Source of the DNA: Thiotrichales bacterium
GTDB lineage: Bacteria; Pseudomonadota; Gammaproteobacteria; Thiomicrospirales; Thiomicrospiraceae
Direction of reading: 5' to 3'
DNA: 64,000 nucleotides
NCBI GenBank assembly: GCA_016938655.1
Contig: JAFGUG010000043.1
Span: forward strand, 1-64,000
Within the stretch, counting starts at the first letter, position 1. Each line of letters opens with the position of its first letter. Both the position numbers and the translations under genes were made by a program. The notes beneath the pieces are model-generated. The model was not told where the DNA came from and ran no database searches. It saw nothing but the letters and a program-made list of their open reading frames with translations. Below, piece after piece: positions 4,213 to 59,552 of this stretch.

Positions 4213-4260
4213 AGCAGGCCTGCCCAAATGAACGTTGTTTTAATTTTTGGCAGGCCTGCT
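4213..4260. terminator. Inverted pair of GCAGGCCTGC palindromes, likely bidirectional terminator
   Basis: AGCAGGCCTGCC at 4213-4224 and its exact reverse complement GGCAGGCCTGCT at 4249-4260 are separated by 24 bases. They can form a 12-bp stem between the convergent HAD gene and yceF, and each arm is itself nearly palindromic. TTTTT lies in the loop (4243-4247) and a short T-run follows the second arm (4264-4267), so termination is plausible but not proven. Confidence 0.55.
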
Positions 4261-4279
4261 TACTTTTGAATACCCCATT

Positions 4280-4894
4280 TTAGGGTTTTAGAGGCAGTAC
4301 AATGCCCATTTTGGCAAACAGGCTGGTTAAATCAATTAAGGGAAGGCCAATGAGTGCATTAGGGTCTTTACTCTCAATTTTTTCAAACAGTGTGATGCCT
4401 AGGCCTTCCGATTTAAAGCTCCCAGCACACTCATAAGGTTGCTCAGCGAGCAGGTAGTTCTCAATCGTTTGAGTGTCTAACACTCTAAAGTGGACGATGG
4501 TTCGATCCATGGTTTGGTGGATTTGTTTATTCGTCGGGTCAATCACGACTAACCCCGTTAAGAAAGTGATGGCATGACCACTAAAGGTTTGTAACTGTTC
4601 AACGGCCTTTTGGTGAGAGTGGGGTTTGCCAATTGGTTGGTTATTAAAGGTCGCACATTGATCCGAGGCGATGATGATTTTATTAGAGTGTGTTTCAGCC
4701 ACTTTTTTTGCTTTTAATAAAGACAGCCGTTCAATCATGGCATGCGGTTTTTCACCGTCTAAGGGGGATTCATCAATCTCCGGGGCAAGCTGAATAAATG
4801 GCAGCTGAAGTTTTTCAAGCATCTGTTTTCGAAAGCGAGAGGAGGAGCCTAAAACAATCTCTGGCAGTTGGCTTTTATTGGTAATGATTTGCAT
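4280..4894 (-). CDS. yceF: Maf-family nucleotide pyrophosphatase YceF (m7GTP type)
   Basis: House-cleaning nucleoside triphosphate pyrophosphatase; the E. coli YceF subfamily prefers 7-methyl-GTP. The protein has 204 residues. The Maf start motif is VLGSSSRFRKQML (residues 14-26), followed by the PEIDE segment, ASDQ near residue 77, which fits the YceF subfamily, and a C-terminal GLPL motif. It is divergent from yceD-rpmF-plsX, matching the E. coli locus. Confidence 0.88.
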   Translation of the reverse strand: MQIITNKSQLPEIVLGSSSRFRKQMLEKLQLPFIQLAPEIDESPLDGEKPHAMIERLSLLKAKKVAETHSNKIIIASDQCATFNNQPIGKPHSHQKAVEQLQTFSGHAITFLTGLVVIDPTNKQIHQTMDRTIVHFRVLDTQTIENYLLAEQPYECAGSFKSEGLGITLFEKIESKDPNALIGLPLIDLTSLFAKMGIVLPLKP

Positions 4895-4929
4895 AGAGTT
4901 TAATTTCTGTTGTCAATAGTGGGGTTTAA

Positions 4930-4957
4930 CCCACTAATTTAATTAATAATTAGTGGG
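4930..4957. repeat. 10-bp perfect hairpin between yceF and yceD
   Basis: CCCACTAATT (4930-4939) pairs perfectly with AATTAGTGGG (4948-4957) around an 8-base AT loop. It lies upstream of the yceF start and before the yceD promoter, so it could be an operator or a yceF leader structure. No T-run follows in either direction. Confidence 0.5.
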
Positions 4958-5092
4958 CGCGAGCAGTGCGTGAAGTACGTGGAAATCTAGTTGGTAAAAT
5001 CAGAAATTAACACGATAAGAAAGCGAAGTATCTTGTTGGTTTTTAGGCAAATTTAACGTCTTAATTTAATTTATAAAAAATGCGTGTTTTTT

Positions 5093-5121
5093 TTGACTTA
5101 ATTGAGCGATGCGAGTATGAT
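5093..5121 (+). promoter_or_regulatory. Sigma-70 promoter of the yceD-rpmF-plsX-fab operon
   Basis: TTGACT (5093-5098), a 17-base spacer and TATGAT (5116-5121). The expected start site is near 5128, two bases before the yceD ATG at 5130, so the transcript would be leaderless or nearly so. Confidence 0.7.
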
Positions 5122-5129
5122 TCGCCGCT

Positions 5130-5678
5130 ATGTTTAACAAGCTTCCAGAACTCATAGATCCAATCAACTCGGTCAACCATAATAAACACATTGTGGCTCG
5201 AGTCAACCAAGTGCGTTTAAAACGCCTTGCTGCCTTGGTGCAAGATGCGGATCGTGAAGTAATGGTTGATCTGGAATTCTATTATAATAAGGCACTGCGT
5301 ATGCCGGCCTTTATTATGAAGCTTGAAACCAGTTTAAATCTGCAGTGTCAGCGTTCTTTAGAGTATTTTGATTTCCCAGTTACCACTGAGGTAAAAGGGG
5401 TCATGACTCAATCGATGGCACTGGTTGACGATGTTCCAAATGACGTTGATATTTTTGAAATTCAAGAAGATGAGAAAGTTTCACTTCCTGAATGGGTCGA
5501 AGATGAGCTGTTATTATGTGTGCCGTTATCGCCCACAAAAGAGGGCAGTTCAATGCCGTATGAAAATACGAGTGGGACTGCTGATCAAGAAAAAATTCCG
5601 TCTGGAAGTGATGCTTTAAATGAAACGTCTACTTCAAGACCTAACCCGTTTGCAGCGTTGCAAGGGTTAAAAAAATAG
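5130..5678 (+). CDS. yceD: YceD (DUF177) family protein, 23S rRNA accumulation
   Basis: DUF177 protein of 182 residues, always found upstream of rpmF and linked to 23S rRNA accumulation in other organisms. The N-terminus KLPELIDP matches the known start of the family (KLP-x-x-x-DP in E. coli), supporting the ATG at 5130. No Shine-Dalgarno is visible and the promoter -10 box ends 8 bases before the ATG. The cysteine of the LQCQRSLE segment is the remnant of the family CxxC zinc-type motif; here the second Cys is replaced. The acidic C-terminus followed by a Ser/Thr-rich tail is longer than in short homologues. Confidence 0.88.
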   Translation: MFNKLPELIDPINSVNHNKHIVARVNQVRLKRLAALVQDADREVMVDLEFYYNKALRMPAFIMKLETSLNLQCQRSLEYFDFPVTTEVKGVMTQSMALVDDVPNDVDIFEIQEDEKVSLPEWVEDELLLCVPLSPTKEGSSMPYENTSGTADQEKIPSGSDALNETSTSRPNPFAALQGLKK

Positions 5679-5701
5679 TTTTATAAATTTAGGAGATTGC
5701 C

Positions 5702-5875
5702 ATGGCTGTTCAAAAAAGTCGTAAAACCCCATCAAGACGTGGTATGCGTCGTTCTCACGATGCAGTAGATGCACCTACATTAACTGTAGATGAAACGACG
5801 GGTGAAGTTCACCGTCGTCACCATGTAACTGCAGATGGTTACTACAAAGGTAAAAAAGTCGTCGCAGACAAATAA
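5702..5875 (+). CDS. rpmF: 50S ribosomal protein L32
   Basis: 57 residues beginning [20 protein letters not shown], the characteristic L32 N-terminus. AGGAG at 5690-5694 is the ribosome binding site. It lies 23 bases after yceD and 14 before plsX, the classic yceD-rpmF-plsX order that ties ribosome supply to lipid synthesis. This bacterium lacks the CxxC pair found in zinc-type L32 proteins. Confidence 0.96.
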
Positions 5876-5889
5876 AAGGCTAATCGCTC

Positions 5890-7976: not shown

Positions 7977-7988
7977 AGCAGGCCTGCT
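7977..7988. repeat. GCAGGCCTGC palindrome copy, fabH-fabD gap
   Basis: AGCAGGCCTGCT within a 16-bp perfect palindrome TGAGCAGGCCTGCTCA (7975-7990); the left side continues as AAAAG. It lies 12 bases after the fabH stop. Confidence 0.9.
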
Positions 7989-13142: not shown

Positions 13143-14098
13143 TGACGGGGTTATGTTGGGTAAACGGCCAACGTGCGGATGAGATTTCGACAATGGATCG
13201 AAGTGTGCAGTACGGCGATGGTTTTTTTACTACTCTGCTTGTTATACAGGGGCAGGTCTATAATTGGCAAGGGCACTGGTGGCGGTTACAAAATAGTGCC
13301 AAGCGACTTGGTTTTCCTGCGCTTGTAGAGTCGGATGTTCGGAATCTGCTTAAATCGGTTTTAGCCGATTTTGTTGAAGTAACGCAAGCGAAAAAGGATT
13401 CAAGCCTTTCAGACAGTTCATTTAAAAGTCAGCAGGCCTGCTGTTTTAATGATTCATCCAAGCCCTTAGCGATGAAGCTCGTTATTACAAGGGGGGTGGG
13501 TGGAAAAGGCTATCAACCGCCTTTAGAACCAAAGCCGAATACGATTGTTTATATCCATCCCCATCCACAATTTGAAAACGTCTGCGATTTTGAAACCATG
13601 TCAGCACCGATTGAACTGGGGTTAAGTCAAACCTTAAGTACGATTCAACCGCAACTGGCTGGTTTGAAGCATCTCAATCGTTTGGAAAACGTGTTAGCAC
13701 GCAACGAACTGCTTACCACCGGTTTGAGTGAAGCCTTAATGCTTAATGCTAATGAAGAGGTGGTGTGTGCCACACAATCGAACCTATTTTTAATTAAAGA
13801 CAACACATTGATGACACCGAACTTAGCGCAAAGTGGCGTTTCCGGCACCACTCGACTGCAGATCTCACACCTAGCCGAAGGCGTTGGGTTGGACTATCAA
13901 GAGTGTTACCTGACCTTGGAGGATTGTCTTCAAGCGGATGAGCTGTTTTTAACCAATGCACTACGCGGGGTGATGCCCGTGAACCTGTTTCAACAAAGGG
14001 CTTATTCTTCAGAGCGTACCTTAGCGATTCATCAGGCTTGGGTGGTTTGGCAAGCACAAAATAGATGGTGTTTAATGGCTGACGAGCGTGTTAATTGA
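13142..14098 (+). CDS. pabC: Aminodeoxychorismate lyase
   Basis: PLP-dependent fold-IV lyase releasing pyruvate to give p-aminobenzoate. The 318 residues start WVNGQRADEISTMDRSVQYGDGFFTT; GLKHLNRLENVLAR carries the PLP lysine. The start overlaps the pabB stop by one base (TAATG). E. coli PabC has 269 residues; most of the excess here is a Ser/Lys-rich insertion at about residues 83-108, just before the conserved LVITRGVGGKGY strand. A GCAGGCCTGC palindrome is embedded in it. The gene overlaps mltG, forming pabB-pabC-mltG-(tmk-holB-tatD). Confidence 0.93.
   Translation: MTGLCWVNGQRADEISTMDRSVQYGDGFFTTLLVIQGQVYNWQGHWWRLQNSAKRLGFPALVESDVRNLLKSVLADFVEVTQAKKDSSLSDSSFKSQQACCFNDSSKPLAMKLVITRGVGGKGYQPPLEPKPNTIVYIHPHPQFENVCDFETMSAPIELGLSQTLSTIQPQLAGLKHLNRLENVLARNELLTTGLSEALMLNANEEVVCATQSNLFLIKDNTLMTPNLAQSGVSGTTRLQISHLAEGVGLDYQECYLTLEDCLQADELFLTNALRGVMPVNLFQQRAYSSERTLAIHQAWVVWQAQNRWCLMADERVN
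13431..13442. repeat. GCAGGCCTGC palindrome copy inside pabC
   Basis: AGCAGGCCTGCT, preceded by AAAAGTC and followed by GTTTT, inside the insertion of pabC. Read in frame it gives QQAC. Confidence 0.9.
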
Positions 14099-15144
14099 TG
14101 AGACTGACGTTTATAAAAAAAATGCTGGCGGCTTTTTTAATTGTATTTGCCTTTTCAGCAGGCCTGTTTGCTTTCCAACTTAACCAGTTTTTAACTCAGC
14201 CGATTGCCGAGTCCGAGCAAGTACAAACCATCAATATTCTGCCTGGGTCATCCGCACATAAAGTGGCCCAACAACTGAATCAAGCAGGCCTGCTGACTTT
14301 TCCCAAAGGGTTTGTTTGGTATCTGCGTTATCAAGAGAAGCATGGTTTAATTAAAGCGGGCGAATTAACGATTAACCCTAAGTGGACGGTTGCGCAATTA
14401 ACCGATGCTTTGCTAAAAGGGGAAACGGTTCAGTATCCAATCACCCTGATTGCCGGTCACACCTTTAAACAGACACTTGAAACCCTAAAGTCGGCTGAAA
14501 AGTTAAAGCATGCGTTGAGTGATGAATTAACGCCAGAAGCCCTAGCATCACTTTATGAAACGTTTGGTTTGCAGAACCTGAACGATAAAAAATACCCCTA
14601 TGCCGGTTTAGAGGGTTGGTTTTTACCCGAAACCTTTTACTACCAAGCGGGCGACAGTGACGTTTCGATTTTAAAGCGTGCTCAGGCGCACTTGAAAACG
14701 GTTTTAGAAACCGAGTGGCAAAACCGAGCTAAAAACTTACCGCTTAAAACGCCGTATGAAGCGCTGATTTTAGCCTCGATTGTTGAAAAAGAGACCGGCA
14801 TTGCGCATGAGCGTCCGTTGATTGCTGGTGTGTTTGTGAATCGTTTAAATAAACGTATGCGCCTGCAAACTGATCCAACCGTAATTTATGGCATTGGAGC
14901 CGACTACGATGGCAATATCCGCAAGCGTGATTTGTTGACCAAAACAACCTATAACACCTATAAAATAAACGGCTTACCGCCCACACCCATCGCTATGCCC
15001 AGTGCAGAGGCGATTCGTGCGGTCATGCACCCAACGCCAACCAAAGCCTTGTATTTTGTGGCTAAGGGCGGTGGTGAGCATCAATTCTCTAACACGCTGA
15101 TTGAACACAATAAAGCAGTTCAACAATACATACTTAATCGCTAA
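14098..15144 (+). CDS. mltG: Endolytic murein transglycosylase MltG (YceG)
   Basis: Cuts nascent peptidoglycan and is thought to set glycan chain length. The 348-residue inner-membrane protein has one N-terminal anchor (about residues 9-28), a LysM-like region (INILPGSSAHKVAQQL) and the YceG catalytic domain. That domain carries the active Glu in ASIVEKETG, plus RLQTDPTVIYG and LPPTPIAMPS. An in-frame TTG lies 3 bases before, but the ATG at 14098 overlapping the pabC TGA (TGATG) is the natural coupled start. Two palindrome copies lie in the first 65 codons. Confidence 0.94.
   Translation: MRLTFIKKMLAAFLIVFAFSAGLFAFQLNQFLTQPIAESEQVQTINILPGSSAHKVAQQLNQAGLLTFPKGFVWYLRYQEKHGLIKAGELTINPKWTVAQLTDALLKGETVQYPITLIAGHTFKQTLETLKSAEKLKHALSDELTPEALASLYETFGLQNLNDKKYPYAGLEGWFLPETFYYQAGDSDVSILKRAQAHLKTVLETEWQNRAKNLPLKTPYEALILASIVEKETGIAHERPLIAGVFVNRLNKRMRLQTDPTVIYGIGADYDGNIRKRDLLTKTTYNTYKINGLPPTPIAMPSAEAIRAVMHPTPTKALYFVAKGGGEHQFSNTLIEHNKAVQQYILNR
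14283..14294. repeat. GCAGGCCTGC palindrome copy inside mltG
   Basis: AGCAGGCCTGCT followed by GACTTTT, the right half of the long consensus; reads QAGLL in frame. A degenerate copy (AGCAGGCCTGTT) lies at 14157-14168, reading SAGLF within the membrane anchor. Confidence 0.9.
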
Positions 15145-15861: not shown

Positions 15862-16854
15862 ATGAGTGTTAACCTAGCACCTTGGTTAGTTCCACAATGG
15901 CAACAGTGGCAACAATTGCAAAGCCGATTAGGGCACGCTTATCTATTTGCAGGCCCTAAAGGCATTGGACTGGAATCTTTTGTTGAACAGGCCGCCCAAA
16001 CCTTGTTTTGCGATACTCGCAATGCCTGTGGCCACTGCACGGGTTGCCATCTGTTGGCGACTCGTCAGCACCCCGATTTTTATCATTTGACGGTGTTAGA
16101 GGATAAAAAAGAGATGACGGTGGATCAGGTGCGTGGCTTAATCAATAAGCTTAATGAAACTTCGCACCAAGGCGGCTATAAAGTGGCGTGGATCGAAGGC
16201 CCGGAGCGTTTAAACAAAGCGGCGTTTAATGCGCTGTTAAAAAGCTTGGAAGAGCCTGCGGAACGGACCTTGTTTATGTTGACTACGCATCAAGCCGGCT
16301 CACTGCCCGCTACCATTATTAGCCGATGCCAGAAATTGAACTTTACCGCACCCCCAATTGAAACCGCACAGGCCTGGTTGCACCAAGCCCTGCCGCAAGC
16401 CGATCAAGCTTTGCTGAAGCGTGCTTTACGTTTAAATTGGGGCGCACCTATGGATGCTAAAAATTGGATAGAAAACAGTCAGTTTGAACAAGATAACGAT
16501 TGGAAAACTGCAGTTAAACAACTGCAATCGGGTCAAAAAACGGTCAGCCAAGTGGTCGAGCCGTGGCTAAAATGGACTCAGCCTGAGCAAGTATTTGATT
16601 TCTTCTACTTGTGGAGCGTGACCGCATTGCGTACCGCGTTTTATCAAGAGAACACGCAATACACGGATGCTCAAAAACAGAACTGGCTGCGATTTCAGCA
16701 GGCCTGCCTAAATGCCAAACGTACTTGGCGTGGCAACGCCAATAAACAGTTAGTGTTAGAGGCATTGTGTTTAGAGTGGTTACAAATTCAACAATCGCAT
16801 ACGCCTCTCGAGAGTGTGTTTGCGGATGAAAACAGAAAAGGAAAACTCGCGTGA
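15862..16854 (+). CDS. holB: DNA polymerase III delta-prime subunit
   Basis: Clamp-loader subunit of 330 residues. The non-hydrolysing P-loop-like segment AGPKGIG is near residue 31. There is a zinc-binding CxxCxxC cluster (CGHCTGCHLL, with an upstream Cys) and ALLKSLEEP, the conserved delta-prime helix. ISRCQKLNF near residue 152 is the SRC motif used in loader assembly. It lies between tmk and tatD, and its stop overlaps the tatD start. Confidence 0.94.
   Translation: MSVNLAPWLVPQWQQWQQLQSRLGHAYLFAGPKGIGLESFVEQAAQTLFCDTRNACGHCTGCHLLATRQHPDFYHLTVLEDKKEMTVDQVRGLINKLNETSHQGGYKVAWIEGPERLNKAAFNALLKSLEEPAERTLFMLTTHQAGSLPATIISRCQKLNFTAPPIETAQAWLHQALPQADQALLKRALRLNWGAPMDAKNWIENSQFEQDNDWKTAVKQLQSGQKTVSQVVEPWLKWTQPEQVFDFFYLWSVTALRTAFYQENTQYTDAQKQNWLRFQQACLNAKRTWRGNANKQLVLEALCLEWLQIQQSHTPLESVFADENRKGKLA
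16697..16708. repeat. GCAGGCCTGC palindrome copy inside holB
   Basis: AGCAGGCCTGCC near the 3' end of holB, reading QQACL in frame. It lies in a poorly conserved part of the protein. Confidence 0.9.
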
Positions 16855-19997: not shown

Positions 19998-20018
19998 GCT
20001 TAGACGGAGCACCTAATA

Positions 20019-22416: not shown

Positions 22417-22428
22417 AGCAGGCCTGCT
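22417..22428. repeat. GCAGGCCTGC palindrome copy before the sucrose operon
   Basis: AGCAGGCCTGCT with the flank GACTTTCAAAA, immediately after the chemoreceptor terminator. Confidence 0.9.
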
Positions 22429-43789: not shown

Positions 43790-43820
43790 TCACGAAGTTT
43801 AACAATACTAAGGGGATTCA

Positions 43821-46247
43821 ATGCAATCACTCTTAAAACTAAAAACCAAAGACTGGGAGTTGGTGGTTTGGTCTAAGCCAGTTGCAAACAAGCAGACTCG
43901 TTTAGCGCACACCTTGGCTCATCGTAATAAAATCTTGCCACTTTCTGAAATACGGTTTTCTGAACCTGTTTTATTTTATTCTGATAATGCGCCTGTTGTG
44001 GAAGGCGAATTTCCATTTTGGAGACGTTTTGGTAATCAAGAGTGCAGGGCGATTACACTTCCTAAACCGCTGTTTTTTGAAAACACCCTTTATGAATTTG
44101 AGTTTATCTTTAAAGCCCATGTTACGTTTACAGATGCGGTTGACACGCACCCCAAGGTTTGCCATAAGCTCAATAAAGTAAATGATGTTTTTCGGTTTTC
44201 AAATCGAGGTGTACCCGTTTTACAAGGCACAATCGCTTTTAAAAATGATATTGGTTGGTTTAAATTGCCCATTGCTTATTGGGTCAAAAATAAGCAAAAA
44301 AATATTTCGATTTCGTTAGAGGTATTGCCTACCAAAATCGACATGGAAGCGGATTTAGATGCCATTTATAAGGTATTGGATAACCAGTATCCGTTATGGC
44401 GTTTTGCTTTAGCAGAGTCAACCGAACAATCGGTTGATCGCACACGAGAAAAGCATGAGCCGTTTGAACTGTTATGGATTGCTGAATTTGAATCGCTTCG
44501 CCATTCAGTTGAAAAGGGTATTAAGCAAATATTAAGCGCACCACATAGCCGTTTATTACCAGAAACAAAAAAATTAAAAGCAGACCGGTTAAAAGGTAAA
44601 TTACCGACTAAGTTAGCTGAAAAAGTTCGTCAAGATATCAGCGCTGGTCAAACCCGTAAACGCTATGCCGTAACCCAAAAAAAGTTGAGTGCCGATACGC
44701 CTGAGAACCAGTTTATTCAATTTGTTTTGAGTTCGTTACAGAAACGATTAAAAGCGTTTAGCCAAAAGACGCGCCAATTTAATGAGCAACCTGAGCAACA
44801 ATGTTTATCAGAATCCTTTTTTCAAGAGATTCAGTCTTGGATTCAACCTTTAGAGCATTTTCAAAATAACCCGTTATTCAAAGAGTTATCGACTTTTAAA
44901 GGGTTGAATGGCGAGTCGTTGGTGTTGCAACAAAAAACGGGTTATTCGGCGGTTTATAAGGCTTGGCAACAGCTTAAATGGTATTTGGGCGTGCTTGGTA
45001 ATCAAGCGACCGTCTCTATGAAAACCATTGAAGAACTTTACGAAATTTGGTGTTTCTTAGAAGTAAAACGATTATTAATTGAAGACTTAGGCTTTGAAGA
45101 ACAGGCCACTAACAAAGGCTTGCTGTATAAGAAAGACTTAACCTTTGATATCAAAAATGGCAATTATGGCTCTTTTAAAATGAGCAGGCCTGATGGGATA
45201 GTTATTGTTTTAAAACATGAGCCCTTGTTTAAAAATCAAGATTTGAAAGAGGGGATTCGAGTTTGGACAGCCAGCCAAAAGCCCGATATTTTATTAGAAA
45301 TTACGTTTAAAAACGGTGAGCAGTTTGTGTGGCTGTTTGATGCAAAGTATCGAATTAAACCACCAAAAAACGTTAAAAAAGATGGTCAAAAAGAATCCAT
45401 TGATTGGGTACCCGATGATGCATTGAATCAAATGCATCGCTATCGTGATGCACTTTTTTATCAAGACAAACAAGACAGCGCAGGGCAGACTAGGCCTGTA
45501 TTTGGTGCTTACGCTTTATACCCTGGCTATTTTGAACAATCGAGCACAGCGTCTAATCCGTATCAGGAAGCGATTAACAAAATTGATATTGGTGCCTTTC
45601 CACTACTGCCTTCGCAACCAGCTTTTAACGGTAGCCTTTGGTTGTCTAATTTTTTAAAAGAGAAAATAGGCACCAAGCAAAACGTCTATTCAACCGCATT
45701 AAGTGACCATTTGTACCTTCAAGATTCCGCACGTATTCCTTATCGCGGTTTGAGTGTGAACAAAGAGAATGCACTTACCATGACCATAGCCTTAGGTAAA
45801 CCCGCAGGGCGAGAATCAAATTACCTAAAACGCTTCGAAGAGGGATTGGCGGAGTGGTATCACGTACCAGTAAAGACAATTAAAGATTTTCAAAATAAAA
45901 TTGAAGCCGATATCGAGCATACGATTATGCATGAGTTGCAATTTGTAGCGATTGCAACTCGATCCTTTGGGCCGGCTTCTCAGAGTATTGAATGGGTTTG
46001 GCCAGTTAAATCCGTGAGTATTAAAAAACGCAGAGAACTCACACTGGAACAAACAGGTCGAGCACCCAAAAACAATAAAGATTATTGGCTACTTGAATTG
46101 GGTGCTCCCTTTAAATTACGAGACACTGTGATTAATGTGCCGAGTGCGAGTTTTATGGCGTCGATTAAACTTACTACCTTAATTGAATTGACCGAATCGC
46201 GTGATTTTAAGAAACTTAAAGCGGTTTATACCGCTTTGCAAGTTTGA
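43821..46247 (+). CDS. McrC-like nuclease subunit (DUF2357 type)
   Basis: 808 residues, AAGGGG ribosome site. The long N-terminal and middle region (beta-rich start, helical 250-400) fits DUF2357-type McrC homologues that dock on McrB. The PD-(D/E)xK nuclease core is YEIWCFLEVKRLL, then LLEITFKNGEQ and FDAKYRI with Asp507 and Lys509. About 300 extra residues follow the core, longer than E. coli McrC (348). The bulk of the gene has host-like composition and carries one degenerate palindrome copy (45183). Together with the McrB-like GTPase it should cut modified DNA. Confidence 0.8.
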   Translation: MQSLLKLKTKDWELVVWSKPVANKQTRLAHTLAHRNKILPLSEIRFSEPVLFYSDNAPVVEGEFPFWRRFGNQECRAITLPKPLFFENTLYEFEFIFKAHVTFTDAVDTHPKVCHKLNKVNDVFRFSNRGVPVLQGTIAFKNDIGWFKLPIAYWVKNKQKNISISLEVLPTKIDMEADLDAIYKVLDNQYPLWRFALAESTEQSVDRTREKHEPFELLWIAEFESLRHSVEKGIKQILSAPHSRLLPETKKLKADRLKGKLPTKLAEKVRQDISAGQTRKRYAVTQKKLSADTPENQFIQFVLSSLQKRLKAFSQKTRQFNEQPEQQCLSESFFQEIQSWIQPLEHFQNNPLFKELSTFKGLNGESLVLQQKTGYSAVYKAWQQLKWYLGVLGNQATVSMKTIEELYEIWCFLEVKRLLIEDLGFEEQATNKGLLYKKDLTFDIKNGNYGSFKMSRPDGIVIVLKHEPLFKNQDLKEGIRVWTASQKPDILLEITFKNGEQFVWLFDAKYRIKPPKNVKKDGQKESIDWVPDDALNQMHRYRDALFYQDKQDSAGQTRPVFGAYALYPGYFEQSSTASNPYQEAINKIDIGAFPLLPSQPAFNGSLWLSNFLKEKIGTKQNVYSTALSDHLYLQDSARIPYRGLSVNKENALTMTIALGKPAGRESNYLKRFEEGLAEWYHVPVKTIKDFQNKIEADIEHTIMHELQFVAIATRSFGPASQSIEWVWPVKSVSIKKRRELTLEQTGRAPKNNKDYWLLELGAPFKLRDTVINVPSASFMASIKLTTLIELTESRDFKKLKAVYTALQV

Positions 46248-47594: not shown

Positions 47595-49235
47595 ATGCTT
47601 AGTATGTTTTTATCTAAAAATAAGTGGTTAATCTTTACGGTGTTGGTGGCGGTTTTGTTAACCATGCCGATGTGGATATTGGTGAGTTTCATTTTTGAGC
47701 CCACCAATGAAAATTGGCAGCACCTTACTGAAACCGTGCTCTCCGAGTACGTGTTTAACTCCATTTGGTTAATGTTGGGGGTCACGGTTGGCACCCTTTT
47801 ATTAGGTGTGCCGACCGCTTGGTTAGTGAGTCAGTACCAGTTTTTTGGTAAAGGCTTTTTGCACTGGGCGTTATTGCTCCCTTTGGCGGTGCCCGCTTAT
47901 ATTATTGCCTACACCTATACAGGCCTGTTGGAATTTGAGGGGCCCGTTCAAACCTATCTTCGTTCAATTTTTGGACTTCAAACCGTTAACGCTTGGTTTC
48001 CAGAGGTGCGTTCTCTAGGCGGCGCCATCGTCATGTTCTCGTTGGTGCTTTACCCGTATGTCTACTTATTAAGCCGCGCGGCGTTTTTAAATCAAAGTCA
48101 GCAGGCTTTAGAGGCCAGTAAAATGTTGGGTGCAGGCCCGGCACGTCGTTTCTTTAAGGTGGCACTACCGATGGCGCGCCCAGCGATTATTGCCGGCTTA
48201 ACTTTGGCGTTAATGGAGACCTTAGCCGATTTTGGAACCGTGCAATATTTTGGCGTACCGACCTTTACCACCGGCATTTACCGAACGTGGACAGGATTTG
48301 GTGACACGACGACGACGGTGCATTTGTCCTTGATTTTATTGGCGTTTGTGTTGGTTCTGATGCTGATTGAGTTTTGGTCGAGAAAGCAGGCAAAGTACTT
48401 CTCTTCAAACACCTCAAATCGTTCAAAAACCACCTTTATTGAGTTGAAAGGCCTGTCTTCTGGATTCGCGTTTGCCTTCTGTTTAACGCCAATCTTACTC
48501 GGTTTTATTTTGCCAGCTATACAGCTCATTTACTGGTCGGCAATGACCGCCGAAACTGAATTTAATAGCGAATTTATCACCCTGATTTGGAACAGTTTTT
48601 ACCTAGCGTTCATTACGTCGGTGGTGGTGCTTGGTTTGGCGTTGTTTCTGGCGTATGCCAAGCGTATTCATAATCACCCCACGACCAATGCAGCAATTAA
48701 AGTGGCCGCACTCGGTTATGCCATTCCGGGAACGGTGATTGCCATTGCGGTGATGATTCCATTGGGCTGGTTAGATAATACGTTAGATGGATTGATGCAA
48801 AATGCATTCGGGATTTCAACAGGCCTGCTGTTATCGGGTACCTTGTTTGCCTTGGTGTTTGCTTACAGTTTTCGTTTTTTGTCGGTGGCGTTGCAAACCA
48901 TCGATACCGGTTTAGGTCGGGTGAAACCGAGTATGGATGAATCGGCTCGAACTCTGGGCGCATCACGTTTTACGATTCTTAAAAACATCCATTTTCCGTT
49001 GATTCAAACCAGTTTGTTGACCGCCTTTATTTTGGTGTTTGTTGAGGTGTTAAAAGAGCTGCCAACCACCTTGATTTTAAGACCGTTTAACTTCAATACG
49101 CTCTCCGTTCGCGCCTATGAAATGGCGGCAGACGAACGCCTTGCCGATGCAGGCCTGCCGGCTTTATTAATTGTGTTAACCAGTATTATTCCGATTATCA
49201 TCTTGAGCAAACTCATAGGAAGAAAGCATGCCTAA
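47595..49235 (+). CDS. fbpB: Iron(III) ABC transporter permease (FbpB type)
   Basis: Fused two-module permease with about 12 membrane segments; ~546 residues. Two EAA loops that contact the ATPase are visible: ALEASKMLGAGPARRFFKVALP and, in the second half, DESARTLGASRFTILKNIHFP. In-frame ATGs lie at 47592, 47595 and 47604; AAAGG at 47586-47590 does not decide between them. It overlaps the ATPase gene by 8 bases. Confidence 0.92.
   Translation: MLSMFLSKNKWLIFTVLVAVLLTMPMWILVSFIFEPTNENWQHLTETVLSEYVFNSIWLMLGVTVGTLLLGVPTAWLVSQYQFFGKGFLHWALLLPLAVPAYIIAYTYTGLLEFEGPVQTYLRSIFGLQTVNAWFPEVRSLGGAIVMFSLVLYPYVYLLSRAAFLNQSQQALEASKMLGAGPARRFFKVALPMARPAIIAGLTLALMETLADFGTVQYFGVPTFTTGIYRTWTGFGDTTTTVHLSLILLAFVLVLMLIEFWSRKQAKYFSSNTSNRSKTTFIELKGLSSGFAFAFCLTPILLGFILPAIQLIYWSAMTAETEFNSEFITLIWNSFYLAFITSVVVLGLALFLAYAKRIHNHPTTNAAIKVAALGYAIPGTVIAIAVMIPLGWLDNTLDGLMQNAFGISTGLLLSGTLFALVFAYSFRFLSVALQTIDTGLGRVKPSMDESARTLGASRFTILKNIHFPLIQTSLLTAFILVFVEVLKELPTTLILRPFNFNTLSVRAYEMAADERLADAGLPALLIVLTSIIPIIILSKLIGRKHA
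49149..49158. repeat. GCAGGCCTGC core copy inside fbpB
   Basis: Core only, reading AGLPA in frame. Shorter relatives with core CAGGCCTG lie in the same gene at 47930 and 48820. Confidence 0.8.
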
Positions 49236-50420: not shown

Positions 50421-51293
50421 ATGAAACGACGGCTGCATAATTTCAGCGTTACACGCATCAAGTGGTTGGCCGCACTGCTTTTGGCGAGTGTGGTGTTGGC
50501 AGGGTGCTCAACCCGTTTTGTGTACAACCAACTAGATTGGTTAGCGCCGTGGTATCTTGAAGACTACGTGACCATTGAAAACTATCAGCAAGATGAATTT
50601 TCTGCCTCACTGGATTCCGTTTTAGATTGGCATCGTGCTACCCAATTACCGCTTTATGCCAGTTTTTTAGCGACCCTTACCACCGAGTTGCAAATGCCCG
50701 TTTCCAAGGAAAGGGTTGCTGAGCATTTTTTGCAACTAGATGATTTTATCGAAACGGTGTTCACCCGCTTTGGAAGGGATTTTTCACCGTTAATGGCGCA
50801 AATGAACGCTGAACAACAAGCAGAACTACTGGAAAACTTAACCGATAAAAACCTAGAGTACTATGAGGATAAGGTGTTAATTGGTGAGGCGAAGTCTAAA
50901 GAGAAAAGCAAAGAACGCCTGCACGATTTTTTAGAAGATTGGTTGGATGATTTAACCCCAAGTCAAACACAAATGATTGAACAATGGTCTGCGGACTTGG
51001 ATTGGTTGACGCCCGGTTTTTACCAAAATCGACAGGCCTGGCAAGCGCATTTAAAAACGATTTTTGCCGATCAGAACGCCAATAAATCTCAACAAATTGA
51101 AGCCATGTTTAAAGATAGACGTCAGTTTTGGTCGGATGAACTGAAGCAACAGTTTGCTCATAACCAACAGGTAACCGCTGGGTTTATTGTGCAGTTGGTT
51201 AACAGCTTAGACAGTAAACAAAAACAGTTGTTGGTTAAAAACTTGAAACAATATGAAGCTGATTTTAGGTTACTGGCCAGTCAGTCTAATTAA
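50421..51293 (+). CDS. DUF6279-type lipoprotein
   Basis: 290 residues. The lipobox is VLAGC with lipidated Cys29, after a basic start and a hydrophobic stretch. The mature part begins STRFVYNQLDWLAPWYLEDYVT, the hallmark of this family of unknown function, and is helical and rich in Gln. Ser at +2 predicts outer-membrane anchoring on the periplasmic side. It stands as its own unit. Confidence 0.82.
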   Translation: MKRRLHNFSVTRIKWLAALLLASVVLAGCSTRFVYNQLDWLAPWYLEDYVTIENYQQDEFSASLDSVLDWHRATQLPLYASFLATLTTELQMPVSKERVAEHFLQLDDFIETVFTRFGRDFSPLMAQMNAEQQAELLENLTDKNLEYYEDKVLIGEAKSKEKSKERLHDFLEDWLDDLTPSQTQMIEQWSADLDWLTPGFYQNRQAWQAHLKTIFADQNANKSQQIEAMFKDRRQFWSDELKQQFAHNQQVTAGFIVQLVNSLDSKQKQLLVKNLKQYEADFRLLASQSN

Positions 51294-52020: not shown

Positions 52021-53379
52021 ATGCGCAATAAACAAACCACACCCACACGCCACGATTTATGGTTCCTGCCATTGGGCGGCACCGGTGAAATTGGCATGAA
52101 TATGAACCTCTATGGGCATGCAGGTGAGTGGTTAATGGTGGATTGCGGCATTGGCTTTGACGATAAAAATGGTCGAAATCGTTATATTGCGGATGCGCGT
52201 TTTATTCAGCAACAAATTGAGCACAATGCCCATTGCTTGCAGGCCATTGTCATTACCCATGCCCATGAAGATCATATTGGCGCGATTGTGGAATTGTGGC
52301 CAACTTTACGTGCCCCCATTTTTGCGACGCGCTTTGCGATTGAGGTGATAGTTAACAAACTCTCTAACTCGCCTTGGGCAGCGCACGTGCCGTTGCACAT
52401 TATTAACGTGCATCAGCGTTATGAACTGGGGCAGTTTTCCGTGACTTGGCTGCCATTGCCACACTCGATTCCGGAGGCCTGCGCGTTGTTAATTGAAACC
52501 GATGTGGGCAATGTGCTGCACACCGGTGATTGGAAAAAAGACGATAACCCTGTGTTGGGTGCAGGCTTTGATGCGGCCAGTTTTGCGGCTTTAACGTCTT
52601 TGCCGGTGGATGCGATGATTGCCGATTCGACCAATGCCACCAAACTCGGGCACAGTCGTTCAGAGAGCAGTGTTTACACAGGCCTGCTGAAAACCATTAA
52701 AGCGCAAAAAGGCCGAGTGGTTGTCACCTGTTTTAGCAGTAATATCGCACGGTTTGTTACCTTGGTAAAAATCGCCCATAAACTGAATAAACACTGTGCG
52801 GTGTTTGGGCGCTCGCTAGAGAATATGGTGTCCATTGCCAAGCGTTTGGGCTATTGGCCAGATAACCTCACCTTAGTTGACCCAAAGCATGTTGGTTATC
52901 TGCCAAAAGAGGAGGTGATGGTCATTGCCACCGGCTCCCAAGCAGAGCTACGATCAGCGACTCAAAAATTGGCATTGGGCTATCACCCTTGGCTGTTTTT
53001 AGAACCGGAAGACACGGTGATTTACAGCGCCATTAAAATTCCGCCGAACACCCAAACCATTGACCAACAAATTTCCCATTTTGAAACCTTGGGTGTGAAG
53101 GTGATTCATGCTGAAGATGCCGAAAAAGAAGGGGTTGTGTTGCACGCCTCTGGTCATCCAAATCAACAAGACTTAATCGATTTTTATTCGCTGATTAAAC
53201 CTGACATGCTGATTCCCACGCATGGCGAAGCGGAACACTTAAAAGCCCACCAACTGGTCGCCGAACAGGCCGGAATTAGAACGGTATTAGCCGGTGAAAA
53301 TGGCGATCTGTTTAAAATAAAACCGTTTGCCAAGAAGCTTGATCAGTGGGCGCCGATTGGCAAAATTCAAATCGGTTGA
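52021..53379 (+). CDS. Ribonuclease J-family metallo-beta-lactamase hydrolase
   Basis: 452 residues. PLGGTGEIGMN at the N-terminus and the metal site HAHEDH (His80, His82, Asp84, His85), with later HTGDWK and HASGHPNQQDL and the PTHGEAEH motif, place it in the RNase J/beta-CASP family. It lacks about 100 C-terminal residues relative to Bacillus RNase J (about 555), typical of the short proteobacterial type. Proposed 5'-3' exo/endonuclease on RNA. RNase E is encoded in the same window. Confidence 0.85.
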   Translation: MRNKQTTPTRHDLWFLPLGGTGEIGMNMNLYGHAGEWLMVDCGIGFDDKNGRNRYIADARFIQQQIEHNAHCLQAIVITHAHEDHIGAIVELWPTLRAPIFATRFAIEVIVNKLSNSPWAAHVPLHIINVHQRYELGQFSVTWLPLPHSIPEACALLIETDVGNVLHTGDWKKDDNPVLGAGFDAASFAALTSLPVDAMIADSTNATKLGHSRSESSVYTGLLKTIKAQKGRVVVTCFSSNIARFVTLVKIAHKLNKHCAVFGRSLENMVSIAKRLGYWPDNLTLVDPKHVGYLPKEEVMVIATGSQAELRSATQKLALGYHPWLFLEPEDTVIYSAIKIPPNTQTIDQQISHFETLGVKVIHAEDAEKEGVVLHASGHPNQQDLIDFYSLIKPDMLIPTHGEAEHLKAHQLVAEQAGIRTVLAGENGDLFKIKPFAKKLDQWAPIGKIQIG

Positions 53380-53421: not shown

Positions 53422-53877
53422 ATGACGATGATGCAATTAAAAACAGGCCTGTTCGGTTTTGTGTTGTTATTGATTTCTACGTTGGCAAATGCAACCTTGA
53501 CCGAGGCGATGGATGCTTACGCCAATAAAGACTATCAAACCGCTTACAGGCTGTTTCTTCCTTTAGCCGAAGCGGGTAATCCGTATGCCCAATACGGCCT
53601 AGCGAAACTGTATGCCAGTGGTGATTTGAGTGGATTGGATGAAACTGGTCAAATGGATGAACGGGTTAAACGTGATGAGTTAAAGGCGTTCAACTGGTAT
53701 CAAAAAGCGGCCAATAAAAGTTATGGGATTGCTCAAAATAATCTGGGTCTGTTTTATGAAGTCGGTAAGGGCACGCAAAAGGACATCAAACAAGCCAAAC
53801 ACTGGTTTACCTTGGCTTGCGAAAATCGCTGTTCAGAAGGGTGTAAAAATTTGCAACGAATTGAGTTTGAGGAGTAA
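53422..53877 (+). CDS. Exported Sel1-repeat protein
   Basis: 151 residues: signal peptide ending near ANA (residue ~24), then two Sel1-like repeats. These are YQTAYRLFLPLAEAGNPYAQYGLAKLY and AFNWYQKAANKSYGIAQNNLGLFYEVGKG, followed by a Cys-containing third partial repeat. Likely a periplasmic protein-protein adaptor. Three close ATGs (53422, 53425, 53428) make the exact start uncertain. It converges on the exonuclease gene with an 10-base gap. Confidence 0.8.
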   Translation: MTMMQLKTGLFGFVLLLISTLANATLTEAMDAYANKDYQTAYRLFLPLAEAGNPYAQYGLAKLYASGDLSGLDETGQMDERVKRDELKAFNWYQKAANKSYGIAQNNLGLFYEVGKGTQKDIKQAKHWFTLACENRCSEGCKNLQRIEFEE

Positions 53878-55472: not shown

Positions 55473-56798
55473 TTAAAGCGTTTGAGTAACGTTTGTAAAA
55501 GTGTCTAATACATTGACACGTGCTTTCAGTTTGGCCGCCAACAAGTATAAACCACCAAGTTTACGGTGAAAGAACAGCGCGTCAGCCGGCGGGGTATGCC
55601 AGTAGTCCAACTCCATACTCAGAGCCATGCCTTTGTCTTTAATGCGGGCAGGTAGGTCAGAGGTGCCAAAATCAAACTCACCTTTAAATTGAATCGGTTC
55701 GCAGGCCTGCTGAAATAGCTCAATCACCGCGGCTTTTTGTTGGGGCAAGATACTGGCGCTAAAAAAGCCAATCTGGGTTGCGGCGGCTTCAATTTCTTGC
55801 GGATTGTGGGCTATCGCTCCGCGAATTAATTTGAGATACCCCTCTGAAATTTGCTCACTGTAATGACGGGTCGCGCCAAAGTCGAGTAAGACTACCTGGT
55901 GGGTTTTGGGGTTGAATTGGTAGTTGGCAAAGTTGGGGTCGGTTTGCACCAACTTAAACTCAAACATCTCTTTAAATAACAGTTCAAATAGCGCCTGCAT
56001 AATGGCGTTTCGTTCGTCTTGAGCAGCATGCACGCGCGATTCAATCGGCACGCCTTCCACAAAATCCATTGCCAAAATGTTCTCAGAGGTCAGTTCGGAG
56101 TGAACACTCGGAATTAAAAAACGTGGATCATTATTTAAGTGGGTTTTATAAAGATTTAAACAGTCAGACTCATATTGATAGTCGGCCTCAGCGTGCAGTT
56201 GCAGTTTGGCCTCAAGCAGAATGGGTTTTAGGTCAACCGTTTTGGGAATCAGACCAGAAAGTTTTAACAAACTGGAGAGATTGTCTACGTCACTGTCGAT
56301 GGTGGTCTTTATGCCCGGGTACTGAATTTTTAATGCCAAGTGGCGACCATCTTGGGTGTGTGCTTCATGCACTTGACCAATGGAGGCGGCAGCAATCGGG
56401 TAGAACGAGAACTGGGCAAACTGATCTTGCCAATCGTCACCCCAGTCGGATTCTAAAACGCCCACCAACTGATTCAATGGCATGGACTTGCCTTCAGAAC
56501 GTAACTTGCTGAGTATAGTCGTCAGCTCTTCGGGCAACAGGTCGCCGGCATCCATTGACAACAGTTGACCTACTTTCATAGCGGCACCACGCATTTGCGC
56601 CAAGTGATCGGCAAAGCGTTTGGCATTGCCGGGTGTCAGGAGCAAGTCTTTTGTATTAGGGCGCTGGCCTTTAGCCAACTGTTTACTGCCCTCAAGCAAC
56701 ATATTGCCAGCCACGCTGGAGACCAAACCGGTAAATTTACTAAACCGATTCAAGCGGCCTTTGGGCATTTTTTTGGACTCTATTTCGCGACTTTGCAT
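55473..56798 (-). CDS. ABC1/UbiB-family atypical kinase
   Basis: 441 residues of the ABC1 (COQ8/UbiB) family. The KxGQ motif is AMKVGQLLSMDAGDLLPEEL, with the Ala-rich loop PIAAASIGQVHEA and VAIK-type lysine in LALKIQYPGIK. The metal site is in LLDFGATRHYSE. There are no C-terminal membrane helices as in E. coli UbiB, so it belongs to the soluble branch. Role probably linked to quinone or isoprenoid lipids (inference). Confidence 0.85.
   Translation of the reverse strand: MQSREIESKKMPKGRLNRFSKFTGLVSSVAGNMLLEGSKQLAKGQRPNTKDLLLTPGNAKRFADHLAQMRGAAMKVGQLLSMDAGDLLPEELTTILSKLRSEGKSMPLNQLVGVLESDWGDDWQDQFAQFSFYPIAAASIGQVHEAHTQDGRHLALKIQYPGIKTTIDSDVDNLSSLLKLSGLIPKTVDLKPILLEAKLQLHAEADYQYESDCLNLYKTHLNNDPRFLIPSVHSELTSENILAMDFVEGVPIESRVHAAQDERNAIMQALFELLFKEMFEFKLVQTDPNFANYQFNPKTHQVVLLDFGATRHYSEQISEGYLKLIRGAIAHNPQEIEAAATQIGFFSASILPQQKAAVIELFQQACEPIQFKGEFDFGTSDLPARIKDKGMALSMELDYWHTPPADALFFHRKLGGLYLLAAKLKARVNVLDTFTNVTQTL
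55701..55710. repeat. GCAGGCCTGC core copy inside the ABC1 kinase gene
   Basis: CGCAGGCCTGCTG; on the coding strand it reads QQACE in frame. Confidence 0.85.
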
Positions 56799-56952: not shown

Positions 56953-56964
56953 AGCAGGCCTGCT
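56953..56964. repeat. GCAGGCCTGC palindrome copy between tas and the ABC1 gene
   Basis: AGCAGGCCTGCT with left ACTT and right CACTTTTAAAA flanks; lies 40 bases downstream of the tas stop. Confidence 0.9.
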
Positions 56965-58467: not shown

Positions 58468-58516
58468 AAACCCAGATTAAATAATTTTATGAAGCAAAGC
58501 TTCAAAGGAAACAGAT

Positions 58517-58657
58517 ATGGAATTTCGTAATAAGCAAAAAGATAACAATCCAATGGGCGGATTTGTAAGCGTTAAGGTTTTATCAACCGGTTTACCAATG
58601 GCGGTACTGAGCGCAATTTATGCTGCTCTCTCATTTTCAGTGGGTAGTGCAGTTTAA
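58517..58657 (+). CDS. Small hydrophobic peptide, copy 1 of 3
   Basis: 46 residues: MEFRNKQKDNNPMGG, then a hydrophobic stretch ending LSFSVGSAV. The ribosome site AAAGGA lies eight bases upstream. The same charged start, a Gly-Gly at residues 14-15 and the LS-x-IYA-x-LSF core recur in the two following genes. The C-terminal ~22 residues could span a membrane. Family unknown to me. Conservation of three separate copies, each with its own ribosome site, strongly supports real coding. Confidence 0.8.
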   Translation: MEFRNKQKDNNPMGGFVSVKVLSTGLPMAVLSAIYAALSFSVGSAV

Positions 58658-58704
58658 TTTCAATCAACATTAATCACATTTAATCGATTAAAAGGATGTT
58701 AGCC

Positions 58705-58845
58705 ATGTATTCACGTAATAAACAAAAAGACAAGAACCCGATGGGTGGATTTTTAAGCGTTAAGGTTTTTTCAACCGGTGTGCCAATGGCGATACTAAGC
58801 ACCATTTATGCAACATTAAGCTTTACCTTTGGTAGTGCTGTTTGA
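58705..58845 (+). CDS. Small hydrophobic peptide, copy 2 of 3
   Basis: 46 residues: MYSRNKQKDKNPMGG followed by FLSVKVFSTGVPMAIL and a C-terminus LSFTFGSAV. By eye it matches copy 1 at about 35 of 46 positions without gaps; most differences are conservative (Ile/Val/Leu/Phe). AAAGGA eight bases before the ATG. The 47-base spacer after copy 1 is long for translational coupling, so each gene is initiated on its own. Confidence 0.8.
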   Translation: MYSRNKQKDKNPMGGFLSVKVFSTGVPMAILSTIYATLSFTFGSAV

Positions 58846-58904
58846 AATCACGCGTTTCTAACTAGAAAATAAAAGTTAGATTCAAAAAAAGTAAGGAATT
58901 AATT

Positions 58905-59042
58905 ATGTATTCAAGAAATAAACAGAAAGACAAAAACCCGTTAGGTGGCTTATTTAGTAAAGTCTTCACAACGGTTATTCCAATGAGTGTGTTAAGTGGA
59001 ATCTATGCTACGTTGAGTTTCACTATCGCCAGTGCGGTTTAA
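58905..59042 (+). CDS. Small hydrophobic peptide, copy 3 of 3
   Basis: 45 residues: MYSRNKQKDKNPLGG, then LFSKVFTTVIPMSVL and C-terminus LSFTIASAV. One residue shorter than the others in the middle and the most diverged, but the first 12 residues are identical to copy 2. AAGGA seven bases upstream. A terminator follows within 60 bases, closing the operon. Confidence 0.78.
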   Translation: MYSRNKQKDKNPLGGLFSKVFTTVIPMSVLSGIYATLSFTIASAV

Positions 59043-59096
59043 GCAACAAACGTGCAATTTTAGATTGTTCGAATACAAAAACTCGTTGTGTTTCAT

Positions 59097-59121
59097 AAGG
59101 CCTCTTTATTGGGGCTTTTTT
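59097..59121 (+). terminator. Terminator of the small-peptide operon
   Basis: AAGGCCTC pairs with GGGGCTTT (two G-U pairs) around TTTATT, followed by a T-run to 59121. Confidence 0.65.
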
Positions 59122-59324
59122 GTGTCTATAAGTTTGGTTTTATGACGTTTTAGCTCAATAAGAACCTTTTCTATGAGAATTTTTTAAGTGATGAAATAGG
59201 GTGTTGATTAAGCTTTGACCCATTTAGGTGCAAGCTTGAGCCTGATTGACTTCTAGCAGGCCTATTAAGTTTGATTTTCATGGGTTTTTTTTGGACGTAT
59301 AAAAGTTAACACTATGAATTTTAA

Positions 59325-59446
59325 ATAAAAAATTAGTTTTGGTTTAGCGGTTGCATTAACTAAGTCAGTTAGTTCAAAGTTAGTTAGACGCTTAACGCTC
59401 ATCGCTCTGGTTTAAGGTTATCCAGGCATTGATGAGCGTTTTTTTT
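59325..59446 (+). ncRNA. Candidate small RNA upstream of the ANTAR regulator genes
   Basis: A promoter-like TTGGAC (59291-59296), 16 bases, TATGAA (59313-59318) precedes about 120 non-coding bases. These end in a strong terminator: AACGCTCATC (59394-59403) pairs with GATGAGCGTT (59431-59440), then six more T. Inside the loop CTGG/CCAG forms a second stem, and AACTAA/TTAGTT at about 59357-59373 a third. No open frame fits. The left part, 59122-59290, has only a degenerate palindrome copy (59255). Confidence 0.4.
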
Positions 59447-59540
59447 GCCTTAAAGATTTGTGTAATTAATATCCCTAACGGTTTTATGTTGGCCAGTTTT
59501 TAAATCAATAGGGTGCACCATTTGTGCTTGATTGAAATCA

Positions 59541-59552
59541 AGCAGGCCTGCT
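59541..59552. repeat. GCAGGCCTGC palindrome copy upstream of the ANTAR genes
   Basis: AGCAGGCCTGCT preceded by AAATCA and followed by GATTTTTT. The rest of 59447-59742 shows nothing else certain; a TATAAA at about 59713 could be a -10 box for the following gene. Confidence 0.9.

Follow-up and report, generated by a model that had tools for sequence, protein, structure and literature searches.

Among described systems, the closest to the motif considered here are two kinds of bacterial uptake sequence and a set of cyanobacterial palindromes. The neisserial DUS (GCCGTCTGAA, core CTG) occurs, according to the available portions of its literature, as numerous copies scattered over genes and intergenic regions, as clade dialects with a constant inner core and as inverted pairs linked to terminators (PMC3630211; PMC12616744). 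The present motif shares these traits but differs in sequence, and most of its dialects are palindromic. The Pasteurellaceae USS resembles it in joining a core to an AT-rich extended motif that starts with an A stretch, and in its reuse in terminator hairpins (PMC1852404, available portion). However, the USS core is GCGG (PMC12616744, available portion), whereas here CAGG is found, as CAGGCCTG or with other right halves, and USS is asymmetric, unlike most dialects described below. The receptor of USS is unproven, and that of the present motif is likewise putative. One account (PMC1939737, available portion) describes known uptake sequences as lacking palindromic symmetry, which counts against reading a palindrome as an uptake tag. 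Cyanobacterial HIP1 and the alternate HIPs, by contrast, are GC-rich palindromes with very many copies that are replaced in some lineages (PMC4390886, available portion). They differ from the present word, which has long AT arms in most clades and asymmetric relatives, and which the methyltransferases tested here do not track.

A Dispersed Palindrome in the Window and Host Genome

The window, the whole 64,000-nucleotide stretch analyzed here, contains 17 exact copies of GCAGGCCTGC against 0.06 expected in 64 kb; none of 100 dinucleotide shuffles reached 17, and their mean was 0.06. Allowing one mismatch gave 26 sites (shuffle mean 1.43), and the window holds 27 copies of the 8-bp core CAGGCCTG. 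The preliminary description had listed 17 positions and a chance figure of about 0.06; every position was matched and the figure was reproduced as the shuffle mean. It also gave five “degenerate” positions, all of them one base off: four carry the core (14158, 45184, 52678, and 53443) and the fifth, at 59256, lacks it. The sites, to which no strand is assigned, are as follows.

4214..4223, GCAGGCCTGC, exact match, intergenic; inverted pair with the 4250 copy
4250..4259, GCAGGCCTGC, exact match, intergenic; pair partner of 4214
7978..7987, GCAGGCCTGC, intergenic, 14 bases past ORF 6987-7964
13432..13441, GCAGGCCTGC, within class IV aminotransferase ORF 13142-14098 (Pfam PF01063)
14158..14167, core variant GCAGGCCTGT, within YceG-like ORF 14095-15144 (Pfam PF02618)
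14284..14293, GCAGGCCTGC, within the same YceG-like ORF; right arm full
16368..16377, core variant ACAGGCCTGG, within ORF 15862-16854
16698..16707, GCAGGCCTGC, within ORF 15862-16854
22418..22427, GCAGGCCTGC, intergenic; separate terminator-like hairpin at 22364-22401
25216..25225, GCAGGCCTGC, within ORF 24803-25660
25851..25860, core variant ACAGGCCTGC, within ORF 25657-26541
29037..29046, GCAGGCCTGC, within ORF 28659-29129; flagged terminator-like (29034-29049)
32301..32310, core variant CCAGGCCTGT, within ORF 30570-33740
35179..35204, full 26-bp element around GCAGGCCTGC (35187), intergenic; separate terminator-like hairpin at 35136-35167
36957..36966, GCAGGCCTGC, exact match, intergenic
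37732..37741, GCAGGCCTGC, intergenic; inverted pair with 37778
37778..37787, GCAGGCCTGC, intergenic; pair partner of 37732; 37773-37789 flagged terminator-like, minus strand
45184..45193, core variant GCAGGCCTGA, within DUF2357/PDDEXK ORF 43821-46247 (Pfam)
47919..47928, core variant ACAGGCCTGT, within ORF 47592-49235
48819..48828, core variant ACAGGCCTGC, within ORF 47592-49235
49149..49158, GCAGGCCTGC, within ORF 47592-49235
51032..51041, core variant ACAGGCCTGG, within ORF 50421-51293
52678..52687, core variant ACAGGCCTGC, within ORF 52021-53379
53443..53452, core variant ACAGGCCTGT, within ORF 53422-53877
55701..55710, GCAGGCCTGC, within ORF 55473-56798 (minus strand)
56954..56963, GCAGGCCTGC, intergenic; both arms strong
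59542..59551, GCAGGCCTGC, exact match, intergenic

Dispersal and over-representation are genome-wide. The 2.93-Mb host genome, which belongs to the Thiomicrorhabdus group, holds 596 copies of GCAGGCCTGC and none of the reversed control. In a 739-kb sample that includes the window, 192 copies were observed and 0.59 expected under an order-3 Markov model; this comparison had been named beforehand as one that could refute the claim, and the count lies far above expectation. Spacing is approximately random (CV 0.95), which is neutral for an uptake-tag reading.

As the preliminary description proposed, the 10-mer extends into a longer element, lies both between and within genes (111 intergenic and 81 coding copies in the 739-kb sample), and is read in two main frames (44 and 30 of the coding copies, with 7 in the third). 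The longer element, AAAnTnAGCAGGCCTGCTnAnTTT, is palindromic over 24 bp, and its flanks are kept within genes too. Pooled arms 3′ of the core read T89-n-A81-n-T85-T88-T82 (percent) in the intergenic copies and T74-n-A69-n-T60-T68-T59 in the coding ones, and in this sample the consensus weakens past the arm. The two arms are near-independent and have equal consensus. In the host-genome sample AAAnTnA followed by GCAGG occurs 191 times, against 0–7 for the other 19 orders of these letters; 172 of the 191 continue with CCTG, and half-sites alone show no clear excess.

Dialects Across the Family

GCAGGCCTGC is one dialect of a signal found more widely in the family. CAGGCCTG is present at 236–1173 copies in 32 of 62 family genomes and at 0–74 in the other 30 (reversed control 0–36); the dividing line between these high and low genomes, 200 copies, was set after the counts were known. 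Genomes were matched to Thiomicrorhabdus and Hydrogenovibrio, and to Thiomicrospira by named loci. The outer bases are clade-specific, being C in the host, G in most sampled clades and mixed in the T. chilensis clade.

Dialects have also been replaced among relatives. The non-palindromic CCAGGTTGGG reaches 364 copies in genome G064 and 400 in G068 against 0–7 in the other 60 genomes, and the non-palindromic ACTCAACAGGCCGG reaches 274 in G020 and 143 in G004 against 0–4 elsewhere. Both carry the arm in the same register as the palindromic dialects. A further form, CCAGGCTGGG, lies at three places in 19.5 kb of G063 and is a possible intermediate. CAGG is kept across dialects, and an AT-rich arm in most clades. 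The arm is not universal, because it is weak in genus g5, where position 2 has a T, position 4 is partly A (G in g5-2) and the TTT tract is missing; this counts against the uptake-tag reading below.

A recognized version of the word is absent from 25 of the 62 genomes. Thirteen of these low genomes were sampled and gave no clear word, at a depth that would miss sparse ones: about 40 kb each of G003, G019, and G024; 16–19.5 kb with a word scan of G012, G010, G026, G069, G060, and G032; and 11–19 kb, for the arm pattern only, of G059, G058, G072, and G001. The other 12 (G013, G022, G023, G028, G011, G016, G034, G071, G029, G031, G073, and G074) were sampled hardly or not at all. A weak word, AACTGCAACA, was seen in G003 (5 copies, 0.13 expected). 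The family tree, built from the single gene ComEC by a quick method, has long branches; the 6 of 62 genomes lacking a ComEC match are not in it.

A Putative DNA-Uptake Tag

What could maintain such a word? The palindrome is probably the host's dialect of a self-tag resembling DNA uptake sequences and found in many members of the family. Tagged DNA would be preferred by a receptor on the cell surface, which may be a minor type IV pilin; in most clades the tag would be an AT-rich arm (AAAnYnRn) adjoining CAGG. Since tagged DNA would be taken up and recombined more often, uptake bias together with point mutation would let tags build up both inside genes and in the intervals between them. The self-complementary core with an arm on either side would make palindromic dialects readable in both orientations, and some intergenic tags would later be reused in RNA hairpins near gene ends. 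The uptake function, the receptor and the drive are what we infer from these patterns.

The preliminary description had offered an uptake signal, a REP-like mobile palindrome and a protein-binding or chromosome-organizing site. The first fits best because of the dialects, the copies in and between genes, the arm and core in most clades and the hairpin reuse near gene ends; the mobile element is not supported by orthologous sites (see below), and the binding site fits less well. Coding sites that mostly align without gaps, the conservation of some sites, and the intergenic pairing with its high density between convergent genes also speak for the uptake signal (see below). The statement that no description was known agrees with the open-licence literature, where none was found among the matches listed; nor was a report of natural transformation in these genera found among them.

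ComEC and candidate receptor families were surveyed in the same 62 genomes. ComEC is present in 56, namely 31 of the 32 high genomes and 25 of the 30 low ones; it does not separate the two groups and was set aside as a marker of the word. The neisserial receptor family ComP_DUS exceeded its cut-off in none of the 62, with one sub-cut-off match in a low genome, and GspH pilin matches occurred in three, all low; neither gave a useful receptor candidate, which, like the ComEC distribution, weighs against the uptake reading. Within the fetched stretches a strict pilin motif found nothing, and a looser one found seven proteins, none of them pilin-like.

We lean, a little less firmly, towards a broader proposal: that this is a third family with uptake sequences besides Neisseriaceae and Pasteurellaceae. 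Its tags would be of independent origin, palindromic in the majority of lineages and thereby usable in either orientation, and turned asymmetric at least twice, with a possible living intermediate. If true, this third independent case would allow one to ask what uptake-sequence systems share. Sister species with different dialects would offer a route to the receptor and a test of spread by biased uptake, and the occurrence of both palindromic and asymmetric forms within a single family would be a natural experiment on specificity change. Some marine sulfur oxidisers of this family are in culture, among them Thiomicrorhabdus chilensis, with a palindromic dialect, and Hydrogenovibrio marinus, with CCAGGTTGGG.

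Alternative Explanations

The site of an intracellular homodimer, with a chromosome-organizing or regulatory role, is unlikely but the most tenable alternative. The palindrome's two arms, nearly independent and equal in consensus, give it the look of a dimer site, and some sites are conserved between species: the core was identical in 11 of 46 orthologue comparisons against 2 of 115 for control 8-mers. However, about 600 10-mer copies lie both inside genes and between them, the asymmetric versions in related genomes imply change at hundreds of sites, which is hard without drive, and 25 of 62 genomes have no recognized version.

Intrinsic terminators or hairpins for 3′-end processing are a very improbable origin, even though the 739-kb sample has features that would suit them. 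The intergenic share is 111 of 192 copies although ORFs cover 89% of the sequence, and density is highest between convergent genes (2.8 per kb, against 1.39 for tandem and 0.58 for divergent). Arm pairing exceeds shuffles at positions 2, 4, 9, 11, and 12 in intergenic copies only. The two close pairs fold strongly as RNA (4198-4268, −26.4 kcal/mol, z −5.42; 37718-37798, −25.5 kcal/mol, z −4.31), and a scan of 20000-39900 flagged 29034-29049 and 37773-37789 as terminator-like. Against this, four single sites gave z-scores of −1.03 (the 35179-35204 element, −8.1 kcal/mol), 1.22 (the 56954 copy, −2.5 kcal/mol), 1.03, and 0.27; the scan total of 25 hairpins was not above shuffles (21.6), and separate terminator-like hairpins lie beside the 22418 and 35187 copies. 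In G035, 122 of 128 core copies are within ORFs. Terminators, which the preliminary description had named as a possible refutation, do not explain the copies, because the arms persist in the 81 coding copies, where they show no surplus pairing. A similar pairing and convergent-gene pattern is reported for paired USS/DUS (PMC1852404, available portion), and the termination role of the putative tags looks like reuse, because the extra hairpin pairing is confined to intergenic copies.

Equally improbable is a HIP-like iterated palindrome generated or maintained by a DNA methyltransferase with specificity for part of the site, such as AGGCCT or GGCC. The word is a GC-rich palindrome with hundreds of copies per genome and outer-base variants, as are the HIPs of Elhai 2015 (PMC4390886, available portion), and the window itself holds two m5C methylase genes. 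Yet neither of the two families tested tracks the word: PF00145 (m5C methylases) exceeded its cut-off in 10 of the 32 high genomes and 13 of the 30 low ones, with no match in any of the nine g5 genomes, which carry 840–1128 copies of CAGGCCTG; PF01555 matched in 13 high genomes and 11 low ones; and at E 0.001 neither family was matched in 13 of the 32 high genomes. Long arms and non-palindromic dialects would also be unexpected.

A Chi-like or KOPS-like guide for recombination or segregation would suit a lineage-specific word occurring about once per 2–5 kb, but is highly improbable: a palindrome is directionless, strand counts of the asymmetric dialects are nearly even (166/198, 195/205, and 137/137), and of the 166 forward CCAGGTTGGG copies in G064, 64 fall within the first 1.006 Mb of the 2.491 Mb, against 67 under an even distribution. 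Spread by insertion of a REP- or MITE-like palindrome is the least credible explanation: copies are dispersed and partly intergenic, and 5 of 49 orthologue alignments are gapped at this point against 8 of 209 controls, but the consensus fades past the arm and coding sites are mostly ungapped (44 of 49 alignments; control 201 of 209).

Abundance of the Word and Its Extended Form

The preliminary description had placed 17 exact copies of the palindrome GCAGGCCTGC in the window; each was recovered where it had been placed, against 0.06 expected from shuffled sequences, and the inner 8-bp core, CAGGCCTG, occurs 27 times. The excess also holds against an order-3 Markov model: in a 739-kb sample made up of the window and further fetched stretches of the source genome, GCAGGCCTGC is found 192 times (0.59 expected) and CAGGCCTG 334 times (8.02 expected). 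Across the source genome (2.93 Mb, 108 contigs; completeness 95.66, contamination 7.72) there are 596 copies of GCAGGCCTGC and none of the same 10-mer with its letters reversed. Outside the family, 21 other genomes of the class that were searched hold 0–41 copies, with controls of at most 14.

The palindrome is part of a longer unit, AAAnTnAGCAGGCCTGCTnAnTTT. When both sides of the 192 sites are pooled, the core is followed by the consensus T-n-A-n-T-T-T. Read from the arm inwards, GCAGG follows AAAnTnA 191 times in the source-genome sample, while each of the other 19 orders of the same letters does so 0–7 times, and CCTG continues 172 of these 191 matches.

Dialects Within the Family

Counts of CAGGCCTG divide the 62 genomes of the family, the same 62 that an order-level search returned, into 32 with 236–1173 copies and 30 with 0–74 (reversed control 0–36); the dividing count of 200 was set after the counts were seen. 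Mapped onto a tree of ComEC from 56 genomes, this high or low label requires seven changes, at least five of them on well-supported branches. The source genome groups with genome G025, and its outer base is C in 491 of 666 arms. In the other sampled clades the commonest base is G, with the exception of the T. chilensis clade, which has a mixture of T, C and G. This clade and g6 also have the TTT tract, which is partly present in g1b and absent in g5.

Several low genomes carry asymmetric forms of the word. G020 carries AAACTCAACAGGCCGGGT, and the 14-mer ACTCAACAGGCCGG is found 274 times in G020 and 143 times in G004 (0–4 in the other 60 genomes; control 0). G064 and G068 carry AAAATCTRCCAGGTTGGGG, with 364 and 400 copies respectively of CCAGGTTGGG (0–7 in the other 60; reversed controls 0–5 per genome). 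In a 19.5-kb sample of their sister G063, AAAATCYRCCAGGCTGGGG occurs at three places and the CCAGGTTGGG form at one, and from this small sample the G063 word is a possible intermediate form. Among the matches listed, some G020 and G004 copies form inverted pairs about 30 bp apart, as do two copies in G063. Aligned by eye on CAGG, an arm AAAnYnRn in the same register is common to the source genome and the G020 and G063/G064/G068 dialects; the A tract has no counterpart in the g5 dialect. In G020 and G064 this one arm is combined with an asymmetric right half, and this suggests that recognition of the site does not require a symmetric dimer. A word is thus recognized in 37 of the 62 genomes (the 32 high genomes, G020, G004, G064, G068 and, provisionally, G063), and none was recognized in the other 25, for which sampling was mostly very thin.

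Single copies of the G020 dialect also lie at G000:C32:5286 and G026:C13:78035, about 8–9 kb from PF01555 genes that are 1123-codon frames in both genomes. Perhaps these mark a common acquired stretch, or contamination (7.72% in the source genome).

Placement, Hairpins and Arm Pairing

The copies had been described as both intergenic and genic, and this was confirmed: 111 of 192 lie outside ORFs (mechanical calls of at least 80 codons), although ORFs cover 89% of the sequence, and 81 are coding. In gaps of at least 20 bp, density is 2.8 copies per kb where the flanking genes converge, 1.39 where they are tandem and 0.58 where they diverge. RNA-type folding of six window stretches gave strong stems for the close pairs 4214/4250 and 37732/37778 (z -5.42 and -4.31), and none of the four single sites stood out (z -1.03, 1.22, 1.03 and 0.27). 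A terminator scan of one stretch, 20000–39900, flagged sites 29037 and 37778 themselves as terminator-like and placed separate terminator-like hairpins beside sites 22418 and 35187; its 25 predictions in total are no excess over shuffles. In G035, of genus g5, 122 of 128 core copies lie within ORFs; the function common to the family is accordingly not one at gene ends.

The arms are kept in both settings, with consensus frequencies of T 89, A 81, T 85, T 88 and T 82% at the 111 intergenic sites and T 74, A 69, T 60, T 68 and T 59% at the 81 coding sites. Left and right arm scores show only a weak correlation (-0.15 at intergenic sites, 0.05 at coding sites). At intergenic sites, the two halves of the palindrome match at positions 2 and 4 in 42 and 45 of 111 cases, compared with 27.8 and 30.6 after shuffling (P 0.0025 and 0.001), and positions 9, 11 and 12 also exceed shuffles (P 0.0115, 0.004 and 0.009). 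The coding sites show no excess pairing at variable positions 2 and 4 (25 vs 21.2 and 19 vs 20.2 of 81). In genes the motif is therefore kept with no hairpin, which speaks against termination as its basic role, and pairing is an addition in the intergenic copies.

Origin of the Copies

Orthologues of at least 45% identity were available in the fetched sequences for 43 coding core sites, giving 49 alignments. The 11 residues at the site are ungapped in 44 of the 49 (control positions 201 of 209), which speaks against the REP-like mobile palindrome offered as one option in the preliminary description. The core 8-mer is unchanged in 11 of 46 comparisons, which have sites in common and so are not independent, and control 8-mers matched for frame and GC are unchanged in 2 of 115. 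Taken together, these alignments indicate that copies arise mostly by substitution and that some are retained between species above the control level. In one fetched stretch, L017, three palindrome copies (18498, 18999 and 19378, spaced 501 and 379 bases) share an identical 25-base left flank, as if a segment had been repeated.

An origin in DNA methylation was considered for two methylase families, PF00145 (m5C) and PF01555. PF00145 scores above cut-off in 10 of the 32 high genomes and in 13 of the 30 low ones, and has no match in the nine g5 genomes bearing 840–1128 copies; for PF01555, at E 0.001, the figures are 13 high and 11 low genomes. Neither has a match in 13 of the 32 high genomes, 11 of which are at least 99% complete, and for these two families this origin was rejected. 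The window itself holds a restriction-modification stretch (38778–46247), in which two genes for m5C methylases are joined by an NgoFVII-like restriction endonuclease and a DUF2357/PD-(D/E)XK nuclease gene. One core copy, at 45185, lies within this stretch.

A Likely DNA Uptake Sequence

The word is most likely a DNA uptake sequence of the type represented by the neisserial DUS and the Pasteurellaceae USS, a step from pattern to uptake that we infer from their likeness. Its copies are scattered in their hundreds, its core carries an A-tract arm in most clades, its dialects keep the inner core and replace one another in related genomes, and copies are reused as hairpins between convergent genes; excerpts of PMC3630211, PMC12616744, PMC1852404 and PMC13020248 describe such features for DUS and USS. 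According to an excerpt of a 2025 paper (PMC12616744), words of this kind are known from two families alone, Neisseriaceae and Pasteurellaceae. This kind of sequence is already known; what appears to be new is the form found in a family of sulfur bacteria. The preliminary description knew of no account of the motif, and none of the word or its dialects was found among the titles and abstract starts listed from open-licence literature, in several searches the top of a longer result. The available main text of one genome paper of the group (PMC6501319) contains no competence terms, and that of another (PMC12628692) has them only for laboratory uses of E. coli.

ComEC is present in all but one of the 32 high genomes and in 25 of the 30 low ones, a distribution compatible with competence and not diagnostic of it. 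Models of the DUS receptor family (ComP_DUS) and of the pilin GspH yielded no receptor in the 62 genomes, and no pilin-like protein was found in the fetched parts of genomes. GspH matches at E 0.001 are confined, among the 62 genomes, to G010, G026 and G019 (L274–L276), three low-copy genomes that form a group on the ComEC tree. The ComEC of G020 (L246) aligns to the 853-residue frame of the source genome over residues 1–616 only, and may lack the C-terminal part.

A second octamer, ATCTCTTC, is also in excess, with 83 copies in the 739-kb sample of the source genome (20.2 expected), 17 in the G005 sample (3.1 expected) and 15 in those of G019 and G026 (1.96 expected).
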